Origin: Halobacillus karajensis
Lineage (GTDB): Bacteria; Bacillota; Bacilli; Bacillales; Halobacillaceae
DNA: 64,000 nt
Reading direction: 5' to 3'
Assembly (NCBI RefSeq): GCF_900108515.1
Contig: NZ_FNWW01000005.1
Location: 124,001 to 188,000, forward strand
The first letter of the stretch is position 1, and each line of letters starts with the position of its first letter. The position numbers were made by a program, and so were the translations under genes. The notes under the pieces are model-generated. The model was not told where the DNA came from and ran no database searches. It saw only the letters and a program-made list of their open reading frames with translations. Positions 7,587 through 24,190 of this stretch are shown here, piece by piece.

Positions 7587-9098
7587 ATGAGTACTGCAAC
7601 TTTAATAACGTTTATCGTTTATTTAATTGGTATGCTGGGGATCGGTTTTGCAGCATATCGTCTAACAAGTGATTTATCTGATTATGTCTTAGGTGGTCGT
7701 CGTTTAGGGCCAGGAGTAGCCGCACTATCAGCCGGGGCATCCGACATGAGTGGTTGGTTGCTGTTAGGTTTACCAGGTGCTATTTACGCCTCAGGTTTAT
7801 CTGAAGCATGGATCGGTGTGGGTCTCGCGATTGGTGCTTACTTAAATTGGCAGTTTGTTGCCCGCAGACTTCGTGTGTTTACGGAGATTGCAAATGACTC
7901 GATTACTGTTCCTGACTATCTTGAGAACCGCTTCCGTGATCACTCCCACGTATTACGTGTCATCTCTGCAGCTGTCATCCTTTTATTCTTTACCTTCTAT
8001 ACATCTTCCGGTATGGTCGCCGGTGCGAAGCTGTTTGAAGCTTCCTTTGCACTAAGCTACAATCAAGCCCTATGGTTAGGTGCAATTGTTACCATTTCCT
8101 ATACATTCCTAGGTGGTTTCCTAGCTGTAAGTTGGACAGACTTTGTTCAAGGTATTTTAATGTTCTTAGCGTTGATCGCTGTTCCTATCGTTGCTGTTTC
8201 TGAACTTGGAGGATGGAATGCAGCAAAAGATGCTGTAGCTCAAATCGACCCAGCTCACTTGAACATGGTTCAAGGCGTTGGAGCCCTTGCGATTATTTCT
8301 TCTCTTGCATGGGGGCTTGGTTATTTCGGTCAGCCGCATATTCTTGTACGTTTTATGGCCCTTAGGTCTCCTAAAGACGTACCGAGAGCTCGTTTAATTG
8401 GTGTCGGCTGGATGGTTCTAGGTCTATATGGTGCTATTTTCACTGGTTTATTCGGTCTTGCATACATCAACACTGCAGATGTAGCGGATTTAGCAACCTT
8501 TAACGCAGAAGTCATTACAGAGGGCGGCGTCCAAATGCTTGCCGACTCAGAGAAGATTTTCATTACATTCTCCCAGATTCTGTTCCACCCGGTTATTGCA
8601 GGGATTTTGCTGGCAGCCATTCTATCTGCCATCATGAGTACCATTGACTCTCAATTGCTTGTATCTTCTTCTGCGCTAGCAGAGGACTTCTACAAAGCAT
8701 TGTTCCGTAAGAATGCAACCGAAAAAGAATTGGTATGGGTTGGTCGTTTTGCAGTTGCTGCTATCGCCTTGATTGCCGTACTTCTTGCAGGAAACCCAGA
8801 CAGTACAGTTCTTGGTCTTGTATCTTACGCTTGGGCTGGTTTCGGTGCCGCATTTGGTCCTGTAATCATCTTGTCCCTATTCTGGAAAGGCATCACTCGT
8901 AATGGTGCACTTGCCGGTATTATCGTCGGTGCGGTTACCGTCGTTGTATGGGGAGATTTCTTGAGTGGTGGATTCTTCGACCTTTATGAAATTGTCCCTG
9001 GTTTCGTGTTAGGTGGACTTGTTGCTATTCTTGTCAGTCTTGCTGGTCAGCCACCGAAAGATATTGCTGAAGAGTTCGATAAAGCTTCTAAATTATAA
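7587..9098 (+). CDS. putP: Sodium/proline symporter (PutP/OpuE type)
   Basis: Na+-coupled proline importer of the SSS family in the cytoplasmic membrane; 503 residues and about 13 membrane spans. The sodium-site segment GASDMSGWLLLGLPGA (D53, M54, S55) matches the segment known from E. coli PutP, and the central GLGYFGQPHILVRFMA is the family signature. By position (between the pcrA-ligA block and gatC) it corresponds to B. subtilis opuE, the osmotically induced proline uptake system. The P5C dehydrogenase upstream would fit catabolic use instead. Both roles are possible, and the sequence does not decide. It is preceded by a small membrane peptide gene and ends at a strong terminator. Confidence 0.92.
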   Translation: MSTATLITFIVYLIGMLGIGFAAYRLTSDLSDYVLGGRRLGPGVAALSAGASDMSGWLLLGLPGAIYASGLSEAWIGVGLAIGAYLNWQFVARRLRVFTEIANDSITVPDYLENRFRDHSHVLRVISAAVILLFFTFYTSSGMVAGAKLFEASFALSYNQALWLGAIVTISYTFLGGFLAVSWTDFVQGILMFLALIAVPIVAVSELGGWNAAKDAVAQIDPAHLNMVQGVGALAIISSLAWGLGYFGQPHILVRFMALRSPKDVPRARLIGVGWMVLGLYGAIFTGLFGLAYINTADVADLATFNAEVITEGGVQMLADSEKIFITFSQILFHPVIAGILLAAILSAIMSTIDSQLLVSSSALAEDFYKALFRKNATEKELVWVGRFAVAAIALIAVLLAGNPDSTVLGLVSYAWAGFGAAFGPVIILSLFWKGITRNGALAGIIVGAVTVVVWGDFLSGGFFDLYEIVPGFVLGGLVAILVSLAGQPPKDIAEEFDKASKL

Positions 9099-9465: not shown

Positions 9466-9756
9466 ATGTCCAGAATTAGCAAAGAGGAAGTGAAGCACGT
9501 CGCAAATCTTGCGCGTCTTGCTATCACGGAAGAAGAAGCAACGACATTCACAAAGCAGCTTGATGACATCATCACGTATGCGGAGCAGCTGAATGAATTA
9601 GATACAACGGGTATTGAGCCTACTACGCATGTTCTTGATTTGAAAAATGTTATGCGTAAGGACGAGCCGAAGAAATGGATTTCGCAAGAGGATGCACTGC
9701 AAAATGCACCGGATAAGCAGGATGGGCAATTCAAAGTGCCATCCGTATTGGAATAA
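9466..9756 (+). CDS. gatC: Aspartyl/glutamyl-tRNA amidotransferase subunit C
   Basis: Small subunit (96 residues) of the GatCAB complex, which converts misacylated Glu-tRNA(Gln), and in many species Asp-tRNA(Asn), to the amide form in the cytoplasm. GatC wraps round the GatA-GatB interface and stabilises it. The N-terminus with [17 protein letters not shown] is the family signature. GGAGGT lies 6 bases upstream of the ATG. gatA begins 12 bases after the stop, so the three subunits form one operon. Confidence 0.96.
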
Positions 9757-9768
9757 GGAGGTTCGACG

Positions 9769-11241
9769 ATGTCTTTATTTGACTATACATTACGTGAGCT
9801 TCAAGAGAAGCTACATAACAAAGAGATCTCTGTCACGGATCTTGTAGAAGAATCGTACAAGCGAATTGAAGAAGTGGATGAAGAAGTGCAGGCTTTTCTT
9901 ACGTTGAACAAGGAAGCAGCGAAAAAACAAGCCGTTGAACTAGATCAGGAACGTGGCAATGCCGATGCCAATTTGTTCGGGCTCCCGATCGGTGTCAAAG
10001 ACAATATTGTAACAAAAGGTCTGCGTACGACAGCGGGAAGTCAATTTCTCTCCAATTTTGAAGATCCGCTTTACGATGCGACAGTTGTAAACAAATTAAA
10101 TGAGGCCAAAGCAGTGACGATTGGTAAATTGAATATGGATGAATTCGCAATGGGTTCTTCCAACGAAAATTCCAGCTACGTAGCAGCACGAAACCCGTGG
10201 AATACGGATTATGTTCCAGGAGGGTCCAGTGGTGGTTCTGCAGCCGCAGTAGCAGCTGGGGAAGTTCCTTACTCTCTTGGGTCCGATACAGGGGGGTCAA
10301 TACGTCAACCAGCTGCGTACTGTGGTGTAGTCGGGTTAAAACCTACTTACGGCCGTGTTTCCCGTTTTGGTTTGATTGCGTTTGCGTCCTCATTAGACCA
10401 AATCGGACCGATTACTCGTAACGTCGAAGATAATGCCTTTTTACTTGAGACCATTTCCGGGCATGACCAAATGGATTCTACATCAGCAGATGTCGACGTA
10501 CCGAAGTACACCGATTCTCTGACTGGTGATGTTCAAGGCATGAAGATTGCAGTGCCGAAAGAATATCTGGCTGAAGGTGTTTCTCCAGAAGTAAAAGAAG
10601 CGGTTCAGGCCGCGCTTACTCAATATGAAAAAATGGGGGCAACGTGGGAAGAAGTTTCTCTTCCTCACTCTAAATATGCCCTTTCCACATACTACTTACT
10701 TTCTTCTTCAGAAGCGTCATCAAACCTGGCCCGTTTTGATGGTGTTCGTTATGGAAAGCGCGCCGAAGATGCAGAAACAATGCTCGATATGTTCATGCGT
10801 TCTCGTGCTGAAGGGTTTGGTAATGAAGTGAAACGTCGGATTATGCTTGGAACTTTTGCATTAAGTTCAGGTTATTATGACGCTTACTATAAGAAAGCCC
10901 AGCAAGTACGTACATTGATTAAGAATGACTTTGAAAAAGTGTTCGAAGACTATGATGTCATTATCGGTCCAACAACACCGACACCTGCCTTTAAAGTAGG
11001 AGATAAAGTAGACGATCCTATGACGATGTATGCGAACGATATTCTAACCATTCCAGTAAACCTTGCAGGTGTACCAGGAATCTCCATTCCATGCGGGTTC
11101 TCTGGCGACGGCCTTCCAATCGGTCTGCAAATCATCGGAAAACATTTCGATGAAGCTACTGTCTATCGCGCTGCTCATGCCTTCGAACAAAAGACAGACT
11201 ATCATAAACAACGCCCGTCCCTTGGAGGTGCGCGCTCATGA
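9769..11241 (+). CDS. gatA: Glutamyl-tRNA(Gln) amidotransferase subunit A
   Basis: Amidase-signature subunit (490 residues) that frees ammonia from glutamine and feeds it to GatB. The Ser-cisSer-Lys triad is visible: K77 in GVKDNI, S153 in [11 protein letters not shown] and the nucleophile S177 in [13 protein letters not shown] good AAGGAGG site lies at 9756-9762. The stop overlaps the gatB start as ATGA, which implies translational coupling. Confidence 0.97.
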
Positions 11242-21056: not shown

Positions 21057-21464
21057 TTAAGTTTTATTATTAGGAAAAGTTTTTTGTGTATGTTCTTCCC
21101 ACCACTTCAAAGCGCTGTATAATATAGCCGATCCGTCACCGGTAAAAGGAACAAAATTAAACAGGTTTAGGATGCAAAGCATAGAGAAAAGGTGGCTATA
21201 GATACTTTCAGAAAAATAAAGCATCGCTCCCCCAATAAAAGGAAGAATCAAGTTAGGTGCAGTTGAAATCCAGAATATTTGACCATACTGGTGATCGTTC
21301 TCATATACTACTTTCCCACCGAAAGGATGAATGTTTATCGAAATTACCTTTTTTTTAAATAATAGAATAAAAAGTAAATGAATCAGTTCATGTAAAACTA
21401 ATACAAGAAATAATAGGGCATAAATGAGGAGACAAGCTTTTCCAAGAATAAGGAAGTTCTCCAT
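21057..21464 (-). CDS. Minimal M50 (site-2-protease-like) membrane metallopeptidase
   Basis: A 135-residue, very hydrophobic protein with about four membrane spans. Zinc-site motif HELIH at H25-E26-H29 inside the first span region, and the second S2P motif at N103-P106-D110-G111 (NFVPFTGDG, one residue shorter than the usual NxxPxPxxDG spacing). This is the core of an intramembrane protease with almost nothing else. YydH, the M50 protein of the B. subtilis yydFGHIJ peptide operon, is a known case of such a protein beside an ABC exporter. It is the last gene of a minus-strand operon and starts 1 base after the stop of the preceding gene. Probable substrate: the 82-residue single-span protein at the head of the operon (inference). 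Confidence 0.75.
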   Translation of the reverse strand: MENFLILGKACLLIYALLFLVLVLHELIHLLFILLFKKKVISINIHPFGGKVVYENDHQYGQIFWISTAPNLILPFIGGAMLYFSESIYSHLFSMLCILNLFNFVPFTGDGSAILYSALKWWEEHTQKTFPNNKT

Positions 21465-21465
21465 A

Positions 21466-21738
21466 TTAAGCGGTACTTGTTCTCGTCCTGAATTTACGTA
21501 AAATCAAAACACTGATACATAAAATCACAAGCCATGCTAGATATGTGAAAAGGACTTGTGTGGTGAGAGAAAATGTGGTGAATAATTCTTCCTCATTCAT
21601 AGTCATATCAATTTGTAAACCTAACTTAGAACGGTAGATACCTGATTCATCTATTGAGAATAATGTAACAAAGTAATCTATTAAAAAAGCGGCTAAATAG
21701 ATCACTGTTCCAATGAAAATCCATTTGGTTAATTTCAT
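21466..21738 (-). CDS. Small two-span membrane protein of the peptide/ABC operon
   Basis: A 90-residue protein with two membrane helices (about 5-27 and 60-81) joined by an acidic loop (SIDESGIYRSKLGLQIDM..., NEEELF) and a basic C-terminal tail RKFRTRTSTA. No family recognised. Its ATG overlaps the permease stop (ATGA), and the M50 gene follows after 1 base, so all three are translationally coupled. It could be an immunity protein, or a partner subunit of the exporter or protease; nothing in the sequence decides. Confidence 0.65.
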   Translation of the reverse strand: MKLTKWIFIGTVIYLAAFLIDYFVTLFSIDESGIYRSKLGLQIDMTMNEEELFTTFSLTTQVLFTYLAWLVILCISVLILRKFRTRTSTA

Positions 21739-23156
21739 AATTTTTTTTCTTCACTCCTCCAATTCTTTCGATTGAATCTGGAAAAATCCCAAGATGGTAT
21801 TGTATCCTTCTCTTCAGATTGTAAAAGCAAGAAGTATTTCATCATAATTAATAGAAGGTAAACAATGATGAAGATGAAAAAACTTTTGGCTACAAGATAG
21901 ATAGAAACAGCTAGAACCACACATAATATTGAAGCAGTGAATTCATTGACAGAACTCTTACTTTTAGGGAAGAGGATACTCATCACAACCGCGGATTCAA
22001 AGATAATTAAACCATAGTAAGCACTATCCCAATAATCACTACTTAAGGTGAGAGCAAACAAGATAAGTGGAAGGTTCAATACTAGACTGATTCCTGTAGT
22101 GATAACTGTTTCCTTAACTGGAGTAATAGTAAAAAAGCGATTCATGCCTCTATATGATAACGTTGTATTAAAGTATCGGATCCCTATAAAGGATAATAAT
22201 GGGTAAACATAAGAAAAGGTCGTCGCTGCAATAAAAAAGTCTTTGGTGTCCCATAAGGCTAAAGTAAAGAAAAGCAATGCAATCCCTAAAACGCGGAACA
22301 TAAGCTTGTTCCTTAAGAATCCCAATAAGATTAAAGTAAACGTATTCACTCGCTTACCCCATCGAAACAGAAAAAACTCTTCTCCATAATAAATGCCGGT
22401 TTGATCTTCTTCTTTACTGTAATAAATGAGCATCAGGAGTAATGCAACTCCGATGAGAAGAATCGAAATAAGAAGGATCATAATTAAACCGTTTAGTTCC
22501 ATATTCAGATTTTGGATACTCTGATCAATTTTGAAACGGAATACAAATAAATGAAAGAAAAGCAGGACAACAAGTAATCCATGGTTAAGGTTGTACGTCG
22601 TTAATTTTAGTTTCTCTCCTAGGACATGAAAGATAAAATGATAGAAAAGAATACTGAAAAAAAACAGCAATTGACAGTAAACGAAGACAAGTAAACTGAC
22701 CAGCCAAGGGAAGTAAAATAATTTCAGCAGTGGAATAATAATCGCAAATACGATTAAAAACGCTCCATAGCTGAGCACCAATTTGAATAACATGCTGCCT
22801 AACCAAATGCTTCCCTTTTCAAATGGGAGGATTTTTAATTGATATTGCATTTTACCTGTCAATGAAAAGGTGATCGTGACAATCAAATAAATAAAACCTG
22901 TAATAATAATGAGTACATTTGTCAGGCTGGAAAATAATATATTCTTCATACCACTGTTGCTTTGGTCTTCCGTAATGAACATTTGATTATATTGAGATAG
23001 ATTTAATAGATAATAAGCGATGTAAATGGCCACTAGTAATCCTAAAAGGATATAGCGGTTTCTTTTTTTTTGAAACATAGGATTTGCCAAAAGATTATGG
23101 AAAACCTCATGCATTAAGAGTTTGGTTATGGTGTAAGAATCGGTCAATTTGTTCAT
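21735..23156 (-). CDS. ABC-type permease, multi-span
   Basis: A 473-residue integral membrane protein with about ten to twelve hydrophobic spans and no nucleotide-binding domain. It is the membrane partner of the ATPase encoded upstream. The frame starts at 23156, overlapping the ATPase gene by 50 bases. An internal ATG at 23114 overlaps the ATPase stop by only 8 bases and may be the true start; neither has a clear ribosome site. Low similarity to ABC-2 or bacitracin-type permeases is expected; the substrate is unknown. Context (peptide, M50 protease) suggests export of, or immunity to, a processed peptide. Confidence 0.75.
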   Translation of the reverse strand: MNKLTDSYTITKLLMHEVFHNLLANPMFQKKRNRYILLGLLVAIYIAYYLLNLSQYNQMFITEDQSNSGMKNILFSSLTNVLIIITGFIYLIVTITFSLTGKMQYQLKILPFEKGSIWLGSMLFKLVLSYGAFLIVFAIIIPLLKLFYFPWLVSLLVFVYCQLLFFFSILFYHFIFHVLGEKLKLTTYNLNHGLLVVLLFFHLFVFRFKIDQSIQNLNMELNGLIMILLISILLIGVALLLMLIYYSKEEDQTGIYYGEEFFLFRWGKRVNTFTLILLGFLRNKLMFRVLGIALLFFTLALWDTKDFFIAATTFSYVYPLLSFIGIRYFNTTLSYRGMNRFFTITPVKETVITTGISLVLNLPLILFALTLSSDYWDSAYYGLIIFESAVVMSILFPKSKSSVNEFTASILCVVLAVSIYLVAKSFFIFIIVYLLLIMMKYFLLLQSEEKDTIPSWDFSRFNRKNWRSEEKKL

Positions 23157-23838
23157 AATAATTTTTTAATTCCCCATTATTTATTACGATTTCTTCAATC
23201 ATAGAAATGTCCTCAATATTTTCTATTCTCCCTTTATTTAAAAGGTGAACCTTCGCTTGTTTATTCCGGCTGATATAATCCATGTTATGAGAAATAAGAA
23301 TGAACTTCCGATTAGTTGCAAAGCGTTCGATTAAGTATTCTGTAAGCAAATAGCTCTCATAATCAAGCCCATTAAATACTTCATCTGCTAAAATATAGCG
23401 GACATCTAACGCTAGCGCGATCGCTATTTGTAATTTTTTCTTCATTCCGTATGAATAATCACCAATTTTTTGGTTAAGGCGATCCTTCAAGTGGTAGAGA
23501 TCAATGATAAAATGGAATAAGTCATGATCCGGATTCTCATATCTGGAAAATACGAAGTGAGCGTATTCTCTCCCTGACAAATATTCAGGTAAGTAAAAAT
23601 CAGAAGGGATATAATACATAAACTTTTTTGCAGCCTTTTCTCTTCTATCTTCCCCGTGAATAGTGATTTCTCCTTGTTCAAAAGGAATGATGTCACAAAT
23701 ACAATTAAAAAGCGTCGTTTTTCCTGACCCATTGATACCTACAAGGATGTCTATGCCTTTAGAATCAAATGAAAGAGTTAAGTTTTTCAACACTTTGTTG
23801 TTTCTATATGATTTTATTAATCCGTCTATTTTTATCAT
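23107..23838 (-). CDS. ABC transporter ATP-binding protein
   Basis: Nucleotide-binding subunit of 243 residues. Walker A GINGSGKTT, Q-loop region, a divergent signature YSYGMKKKLQ in place of LSGGQ, Walker B YILADEVFNGLD and H-loop ISHN are all present. The class resembles exporters for peptides and antibiotics. A TTG at 23847 opens the frame, but the ATG at 23838 has AAGG at a better distance. It lies 57 bases downstream of the 82-residue peptide gene and overlaps the permease gene. Confidence 0.85.
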   Translation of the reverse strand: MIKIDGLIKSYRNNKVLKNLTLSFDSKGIDILVGINGSGKTTLFNCICDIIPFEQGEITIHGEDRREKAAKKFMYYIPSDFYLPEYLSGREYAHFVFSRYENPDHDLFHFIIDLYHLKDRLNQKIGDYSYGMKKKLQIAIALALDVRYILADEVFNGLDYESYLLTEYLIERFATNRKFILISHNMDYISRNKQAKVHLLNKGRIENIEDISMIEEIVINNGELKNYYEQIDRFLHHNQTLNA

Positions 23839-23895
23839 ATCAGTCAACCTTATGAGTATTTTTTGTATGGGTTTGGAGAATAGATGTTTTATGTT

Positions 23896-24144
23896 TTAAT
23901 TAGGTTTACACCCAATTCCTATGTTCCATACCTTAGGCCAATTCCATTTTACTTGCCCTGAGAATGAATAGCCTTTGCTTGTACAATAGTAAGCATAGCC
24001 TATGCCACCAATCACGGCTATCAAAATAATTACCCAAATAATCCATTTGTTTTCAATTACGTCCTGGTATTTAACCTCTAGATGATTTTTCAGTGAATAA
24101 AGCCAATTAAGTAAAACTAGTTGAAAATCATGTAAAGCTGTCAA
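23896..24144 (-). CDS. Putative precursor peptide, single membrane span with Cys-flanked C-terminal tail
   Basis: An 82-residue ORF that starts with TTG behind an excellent GGAGGGGG site 8 bases upstream. Three parts: a charged amphipathic N-terminus (1-33), a hydrophobic span (about 34-53, WIIWVIILIAVIGGIGY core), and a 29-residue tail bracketed by C54 and C79. The tail is rich in Trp, Gly, Lys and Tyr, with QVKWNWPKVWNIGIG in it, and could form one disulfide. No known bacteriocin family was recognised. It heads an operon with an ABC exporter and an M50 protease, so release of the tail by intramembrane cutting is a natural model, but this is inference. It could instead be a small immunity or regulatory membrane protein. 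Confidence 0.6.
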   Translation of the reverse strand: MTALHDFQLVLLNWLYSLKNHLEVKYQDVIENKWIIWVIILIAVIGGIGYAYYCTSKGYSFSGQVKWNWPKVWNIGIGCKPN

Positions 24145-24190
24145 CTTAGTTTCCCCCTCCGCTCTCCGCTATTCTCCAAACCATACGGTT

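Follow-up and report, generated by a model that had tools for sequence, protein, structure and literature searches.

The stretch of DNA analysed (the window; 64,000 nt of Halobacillus karajensis, contig NZ_FNWW01000005.1, positions 124,001 to 188,000) carries at 21057-24144 a cassette of five closely packed, co-directional open reading frames (ORFs), all on the minus strand according to the ORF list and the sequence. Gene names follow those of the TMcins, a class of antimicrobials published in 2025, which genome mining had overlooked according to its authors (PMC12328743; PMC13252029). The first gene is a tmcA-like precursor peptide gene coding for 82 aa from a TTG start (23896..24144), with a likely ribosome-binding site, GGAGGGGG, recognized by eye at 24153..24160. 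It is followed by a tmcB-like ATP-binding cassette (ABC) ATPase of 246 aa with the motif GINGSGKTT (23107..23847), an ABC permease of 473 aa in the place of tmcC (21735..23156), a two-span protein of 90 aa in the place of the escort gene tmcE (21466..21738), and a tmcP-like site-2 protease (S2P) of 135 aa (21057..21464). The gap between precursor and ATPase genes is 48 bases long (57 bases from the next ATPase start, an ATG). ATPase and permease genes overlap by 50 bases, permease and two-span genes by 4 bases, and 1 base separates the two-span gene from that of the protease. The five-gene, same-strand layout described in an initial annotation of this DNA was confirmed in all its ORFs, overlaps and gaps. 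The G+C content of the cassette is 33%, against 41% for the window; in a scan with 500-base steps, the 3-kb segment of lowest G+C content in the window is the one where the cassette lies. In Pfam and NCBIfam, no family above cut-off was found for the peptide, the permease (no Pfam match) and the two-span protein; NCBIfam had no match to the peptide, permease and protease of the window, and its matches to their relatives were weak at most. The ATPase, coded directly downstream of the precursor, was assigned within the ABC superfamily by its family (PF00005, E=1.1e-18) and position. No radical-SAM match was obtained among the five proteins, the neighbouring ORFs at 18-28 kb being judged by eye only.

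The protease matched PF11667 (DUF3267) with 37.0 bits at a cut-off of 27.1, and its M50 match was weak. The AlphaFold2 (AF2) model of this protein has four helices and a predicted local distance difference test (pLDDT) score of 87.6. SpoIVFB and the M. jannaschii S2P were the best folds in the PDB, with probability 1.00 and E of 0.003-0.004 each, and no PDB match was found at E 0.001 or below. The zinc/catalytic motif HELIH is formed by residues 25-29 (21378..21392), and HExxH is invariant in the aligned proteases of the relatives described below, both in those without (12/12) and in those with (13/13) an N-terminal PqqD-like domain of the RRE type (recognition element of ribosomally synthesized and post-translationally modified peptides, RiPPs). 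The distal active-site residues of the S2P, Pro and Asp, lie in PFTGDG, residues 106-111 (21132..21149). P106, D110 and G111 are invariant in the RRE-less proteases; in those with the RRE domain, P and D are invariant and G is present in 12 of 13. With the family score above cut-off and an S2P fold, the initial annotation was right to see in this gene an M50 protease carrying HELIH and NFVPFTGDG.

TMcin-G1905 (S. aureus pCT545) is made from TmcA, a precursor with a single span and a leader of 45 residues, which is cut off by TmcP, a DUF3267 S2P without gate helices (PMC12328743; PMC13252029). TmcP cuts 24 residues ahead of the first Cys (PMC13252029). A disulfide between the universal cysteines C25 and C50 is made by the DsbA-like TmcD and is required for activity, the ABC pair TmcBC secretes the peptide and is needed for secretion, and the product retains its helix, kills cells, and forms beta-barrel pores (PMC13252029; PMC12328743). 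TmcE is a two-span escort required by TmcP (PMC13252029). TMcins have been described as unlike other RiPP clusters.

In the window peptide, residues 1-29 (24058..24144) are predicted, by analogy with TMcin-G1905 and from their low conservation, to be a leader removed by the protease. Residues 33-56 (23977..24048) form a predicted transmembrane helix that would be kept in the mature product, and the codons from C54 to C79 (23908..23985) delimit a C-terminal loop, predicted as a two-stranded beta sheet and probably closed by a disulfide as in TMcin-G1905. The AF2 model has a helix at 33-56 and beta strands at 59-67 and 73-81 (mean pLDDT 60; 63, 74, and 64 for the three blocks). This layout of a helix and then two strands agrees, at low confidence, with the published TMcin fold, and the C54-C79 spacing of 25 matches C25/C50 of TMcin-G1905. 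When the peptide was compared with those of three Halobacillus relatives, 46 of 52 residues were invariant in the part 31-82 and 13 of 30 in the part 1-30, the predicted mature part being the most conserved stretch. Invariant residues made up 22/24 of the helix and 22/26 of the loop 57-82. Because conservation is concentrated from E31 on, the helix and the loop are considered to be under selection. Both cysteines are invariant within the close group of the window; among 22 aligned peptides, the second is present in 22 and the first in 21, with the Cys of locus L091 shifted by one column (loci and genomes of the survey are designated by L and G numbers).

Kinship with the TMcins was recognized by profiles. 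A profile of 18 peptides from other clusters, with no window-type or staphylococcal peptide among them, was run against 361 targets, most of them ORFs of the window, which were included from a length of 40 aa. It matched the TmcA-like peptide of S. epidermidis pHOB2 (E=1.6e-17) and the window peptide (E=1.2e-15), and the next target had E=0.69. A second profile, from which L092 (the branch nearest to the staphylococcal branch) was left out and in which window-type peptides were included, matched the staphylococcal gene with E=1.4e-13. The protease profile gave E=1.2e-10 for the window M50 protein and 4e-17 for the staphylococcal tmcP. The pHOB2 cluster has the published staphylococcal layout (PMC12328743; PMC13252029): tmcP is the fourth gene, a tmcA of 297 bp is the last, and an operon of two genes includes a helix-turn-helix regulator; no DsbA-like gene is annotated in it. 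Profiles of TmcC and TmcE recovered the staphylococcal proteins with E=4.9e-9 and 2.8e-13, respectively.

As the peptide, the protease and the architecture place the cassette among the TMcins, it is regarded as a TMcin-type bacteriocin cluster with a probability of roughly 0.87. Several results weigh against this assignment. The window permease was not among the matches listed for the TmcC profile (to E=1.1). The TmcE profile gave E=0.4 for the 90-aa two-span protein, the best window ORF being the protease with 0.013, and an hhalign comparison of the two-span protein with staphylococcal TmcE yielded E=0.03 over 21 columns. Direct comparison of staphylococcal TmcC and TmcE with their window counterparts failed. 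With TmcC and TmcE homology undetected, the assignment of two of the five parts depends on their position, size and topology. Direct alignments of the window type with the single staphylococcal peptide (E=0.0017, probability 16%) and the single staphylococcal protease (E=0.0003, probability 38%) were weak, the confidence of the AF2 peptide model is low, and the DsbA-like protein of L070 used as query had no match in the genome of the window. The window permease and two-span protein may be too diverged for recognition, or they may have been replaced. The new class of ribosomal peptide system proposed in the initial annotation was abandoned, since the peptide and protease profiles group the cassette with published TMcins.

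By analogy with TMcin-G1905, the 82-aa precursor would insert in the membrane of the producer with its N-terminus inside. Host oxidoreductases would join C54 and C79, so that the beta hairpin of the C-terminus is looped back to where the helix ends on the outer side, and the small S2P, with the two-span protein assisting, would remove about residues 1-29 as the leader where the helix ends on the inner side. A cut 24 residues before the first Cys would put the start of the product near residue 30, and a product of approximately residues 29-32 to 82, with 5.8-6.1 kDa, is expected; the calculated monoisotopic masses are 5801.0, 5930.1, 6043.2, and 6142.2 for starts at residues 32, 31, 30, and 29, respectively. 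The ABC pair would extract the helix-bearing peptide (about 51-54 residues) from the membrane and secrete it, and would probably also protect the producer. Once released, the peptide would enter the membranes of Gram-positive competitors and assemble there into pores. Candidates for the oxidoreductase were found elsewhere in the genome of the window (a Thioredoxin_4 gene and a DsbB-family gene), none in the cassette. The 90-aa protein, given no role in the initial annotation, would by its position be the escort TmcE; a role as BofA-like inhibitor was set aside after TmcE was found in print.

The initial annotation had the ABC pair export the peptide or protect the cell, and this is retained. 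The authors of the TMcin papers leave open whether the ABC pair protects the cell. In two loci, L048/L069 and L061, the peptide is lost and the ATPase, permease, and two-span protein are kept; in L121, most of the protease is lost, no two-span gene is in view, and the peptide, ATPase, and permease are kept. Because decayed loci keep the ABC genes, protection by the ABC pair is weakly hinted at (n=2 peptide-lost loci). Immunity as the only role of this pair was dropped, TmcBC being needed for secretion of TMcin-G1905. Apart from these three decayed loci, the peptide and M50 genes occur together, as the initial annotation had supposed.

A different reading was also considered, in which the protease cuts inside the span and the soluble C54-C79 loop is a signal and not a killer. 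S2P proteases release peptide pheromones in enterococci (PMC10202637), and LytTR-domain regulators are coded immediately downstream of two RRE-type relatives (L052:8281-8634 and L054:1087-1491). No regulator or receptor was noticed by eye in window-type cassettes, the scans covering the five genes, and the published relative retains its helix and kills (PMC12328743, PMC13252029). Moreover, conservation of the helix equals that of the loop, which a discarded anchor would not need, and the two loci without peptide and protease have kept the ABC pair and two-span protein, as toxin protection predicts. A pheromone system is therefore unlikely. The C54-C79 product suggested in the initial annotation, which would have 2.9 kDa, is likewise unsupported: under the TMcin model it is the leader that is removed, the product retains its helix, and a soluble fragment of this kind is unexpected. 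From the same proposal, the ribosomal peptide and a dedicated S2P acting on a membrane-embedded precursor stood, and the cut within the span did not.

Clusters of the same type as the TMcin-like cassette of the window are few in the genomes sampled, and the counts given here and below are not estimates of prevalence. A protease search of 44 genomes of the family revealed three strong relatives besides the window protease itself: Halobacillus sp. Marseille-P3879, Halobacillus sp. A5, and H. andaensis, all with five genes in identical order. Their identity to the window is 74-77% for the peptide, 67-70% for the ATPase, 57-58% for the permease, 64-66% for the two-span protein, and 48-51% for the protease. 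Further same-type loci were found in O. gellani, G. halophilus, B. xiamenensis, B. zhangzhouensis, and one additional genome, and Bacillus sp. FJAT-47783 has a same-type locus with peptide and protease broken. In the G. halophilus record, the ATPase and protease frames are broken (L066:7312-8042 and 9611-9978), by decay or by draft error, and the permease and two-span genes are intact. The permease search of 397 genomes of the order gave six matches, four of them with intact adjoining peptide and protease genes, one with both broken, and one with the C-terminal end of a peptide and no protease. Against genome contigs, the window protease alone as query found no relative, and the peptide alignment found eight. 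Phage records had no match to the window peptide or to an RRE protease, and in plasmid records the peptide and the permease of the window were both unmatched, as was the protease of L092. As the five genes recur in order across genomes, the cassette is not a product of chance. The cassette of genome G380 has a direct repeat of 117 nt (93% identity) on either side (L046:4792-4908 and 8160-8276), with no other full-length copy found in the genome and ten short matches to the repeat ends elsewhere, as if this cassette had moved between elements like miniature inverted-repeat transposable elements.

The distribution bears on the possibility of a housekeeping or stress operon, in which the protease would turn over membrane proteins and the peptide regulate the ABC transporter. 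In favour of this, the parts are membrane proteins of small size, and a regulatory function is frequent in S2Ps (PMC10202637), but the distribution is sporadic, the window type being absent from the 21 other genomes of its genus. The Halobacillus loci have their flanks partly in common, and the flanks differ in other genomes (by eye); the G+C content is low, and TMcin-like relatives are borne on plasmids; this reading is thus very improbable. An epipeptide-like (YydF/EpeX) system with its modification enzyme in trans, alike in the kinds of parts (small peptide, M50 protease, immunity-giving ABC pair; PMC12871923, PMC10885120), is barely credible, as TIGR04077 (EpeX/YydF) was found in the B. 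subtilis control but is absent from the window genome, no radical-SAM enzyme is among the five proteins (the genome at large was not searched for one), and the peptide groups with TmcA. The distinction from Yyd drawn in the initial annotation was correct in this respect, and the epipeptide and soluble pheromone ideas were both dropped.

The peptide profile also matched loci with short two-cysteine peptides and with ABC and M50 genes that are otherwise dissimilar to the window. Most proteases of these distant relatives have about 300 aa and an N-terminal PqqD-like domain. Among the 23 genomes found by the first peptide profile, 12 contain clusters or remnants; the remaining 11 were taken as chance, the window ATPase being unmatched within their 3-kb loci, three of which were also inspected directly. 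A search of 398 genomes of the class with five PqqD-type proteases yielded 13 matches, distributed over 12 genomes. Eleven are peptide clusters (the one in G152 being the already known L053); the other two, L093 and L094, were rejected by eye as SpoIVFB-like proteases within a cell-division/L27 ribosomal locus. Further clusters were found on a P. bifermentans plasmid (two other records of this species, H4 and H7, were left out of the plasmid survey) and in L119, one genome outside the class of the window. Plasmid relatives are also present in S. epidermidis, Peribacillus (protease truncated), and Roseburia (ATPase not adjacent). A further search yielded 23 matches: three known loci, three that were opened (L117-L119), and 17 weak ones spanning just the protease core (model positions 128 onward). 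L117 and L118 were rejected as TMcin clusters, being loci of another kind, in which two proteins with a radical-SAM-like CxxxCxxC (by eye) lie beside a protein of 278-281 aa with a PqqD-like start. The designations L062, L063, L064, and L067 are duplicates of L020, L022, L021, and L047, respectively. Altogether, complete or partial TMcin-like clusters occur in halophilic and other Bacillaceae and on plasmids of Paraclostridium, Peribacillus, Roseburia, and S. epidermidis; some of them may already be in the trees of the TMcin papers.

Fifteen clusters have a protease with an RRE-like domain (L049, L052-L054, L070, L084-L091, L096, and L119). PqqD was matched in all of them (E up to 0.0044), in 11 above the Pfam cut-off; the calls for L049, L052, L070, and L090 are below it and are also based on alignment. 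Among 15 RRE-less proteases, 12 were scanned in Pfam without a PqqD match, and for L021, L022, and L066 the call was based on length and alignment. The leader motif [YFW]xxPx[VLIFA] is present in 14/14 RRE-protease clusters with a usable leader and absent in 15/15 clusters without the RRE domain, nine of them of the window type. The window protease itself has no PqqD match in Pfam and NCBIfam, and the leader of its peptide has no [YFW]xxP motif. With the chosen starts, the motif begins at residue 3 in 10 of the 14 leaders; in L084, L086, L087, L089, and L091, the start codon chosen is shortly upstream of the motif and downstream of the longest ORF start. The search pattern also permitted M in the last place, which no match used. 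WNWPKV or WNWPRV in window-type peptide cores fits the pattern outside the leader; it may be a coincidence, and the core WNWPKV was scored as no motif in the leader. The count excludes L048/L069 and L061, which have a broken peptide, L119, whose peptide has an uncertain start and lies at the end of a contig, and L121, whose protease is truncated; its leader has YSSPAA, and a truncated RRE was seen by eye with no Pfam match.

The association of domain and motif has a Fisher p of 1.3e-8 when relatedness is ignored, and shuffled leaders carry the motif in 1-5% of cases. The link was first noticed on 10 loci, and those added later agreed with it. In the ATPase tree (27 rows, without an outgroup), three changes of the RRE label are needed, at least two of them on well-supported branches, the count being rough as the tree was flagged for long branches. 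Genome G085 has two TMcin-type clusters (L089/L095), one with an RRE protease and a YAAP leader, the other with a 135-aa protease and neither feature. RREs of lasso peptides bind [Y/W]xxPx[L/V/I/F/A] (PMC13381572), and F in the first place (L049) is an extension of this published pattern. A broad branch of the TMcins is therefore probably RRE-guided: the RRE fused to TmcP would grip [YFW]xxP of the cytosolic N-terminus and feed the helix to the active site, and the window and several other lineages would have lost domain and motif together. The contact of RRE and leader is inferred from their co-occurrence and from the motif known elsewhere. RRE and PqqD do not occur as words in the main texts, figures and supplements aside, of the two TMcin papers (PMC12328743, PMC13252029), and no paper with DUF3267 and PqqD together was among the matches listed in a literature search. 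This suggests that leader recognition by RRE, used by many members, has not yet been linked to TMcins.

Two more features of the relatives concern the parts named tmcD, tmcP, and tmcE. As far as PMC13252029 is concerned, tmcD is missing outside staphylococci. DsbA-like genes were found in non-staphylococcal TMcin-like clusters, directly 3' of the two-span gene in L070, L096, and L119. In L070, from a genome of the window's genus, DsbA-like and VKOR genes (L070:8153-9173) overlap the end of the RRE-type operon. On the Roseburia plasmid, a thioredoxin/DsbD-like protein of 502 aa (L122:7113-8621) lies beside the TMcin-like peptide and protease, with the ATPase not adjacent and an IS110 transposase nearby. 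L091 codes for RRE, S2P, and a two-span TmcE-like part in one ORF of 418 aa (L091:2446-3702), residues 325-406 of which match the TmcE profile with E=1.7e-6. The fusion fits the proposal of the TMcin authors that TmcP and TmcE derive from one six-helix ancestor (PMC13252029).

A PqqD/RRE domain fused to a small S2P, together with a two-cysteine single-span peptide, is a handle for genome mining. If true, the RRE reading joins the TMcins to the world of RRE systems and makes them findable by RRE mining. Three points become testable: the choice of substrate by the protease (RRE/YxxP), a possible common origin of TmcE and TmcP, and the basis of immunity.

Among known systems, EpeXEPAB (YydFGHIJ) of B. 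subtilis also combines a peptide, an M50 protease, and an ABC pair conferring immunity (PMC12871923), but it has a radical-SAM epimerase and a distinct precursor family. Lasso peptides and LPPs have an RRE-bound leader motif in common with the RRE-bearing relatives, but their leader peptidases are others (SpI-like LppS for LPPs), and no transmembrane precursor is mentioned for them in the passages covered of PMC13381572. The RRE-bearing clusters share with the window the peptide, the ATPase, and the S2P core, and profiles trained mainly on such clusters recognize the window peptide and protease; the N-terminal PqqD/RRE-like protease domain and the [YFW]xxP leader motif are present there and both lacking in the window. 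SpoIVFB and the M. jannaschii S2P have the fold, HExxH, and the distal Asp in common with the window protease. Compared with SpoIVFB, which carries a CBS domain, the window enzyme has none, is only 135 aa long with four helices in the model, and is located in a peptide operon. The gene order A-B-C-E-P of the window differs from B-C-E-P-A of TMcin-G1905 and pHOB2, the window cassette has neither tmcD nor a regulator, its permease and two-span protein are not detectably homologous to theirs, and its leader is probably shorter (about 29 residues against 45 in TMcin-G1905). In common with both, it has a precursor with one span and two conserved cysteines, spaced by 24-25, a small S2P, an ABC ATPase with a large permease, and a two-span protein, with homology for the peptide and the protease.

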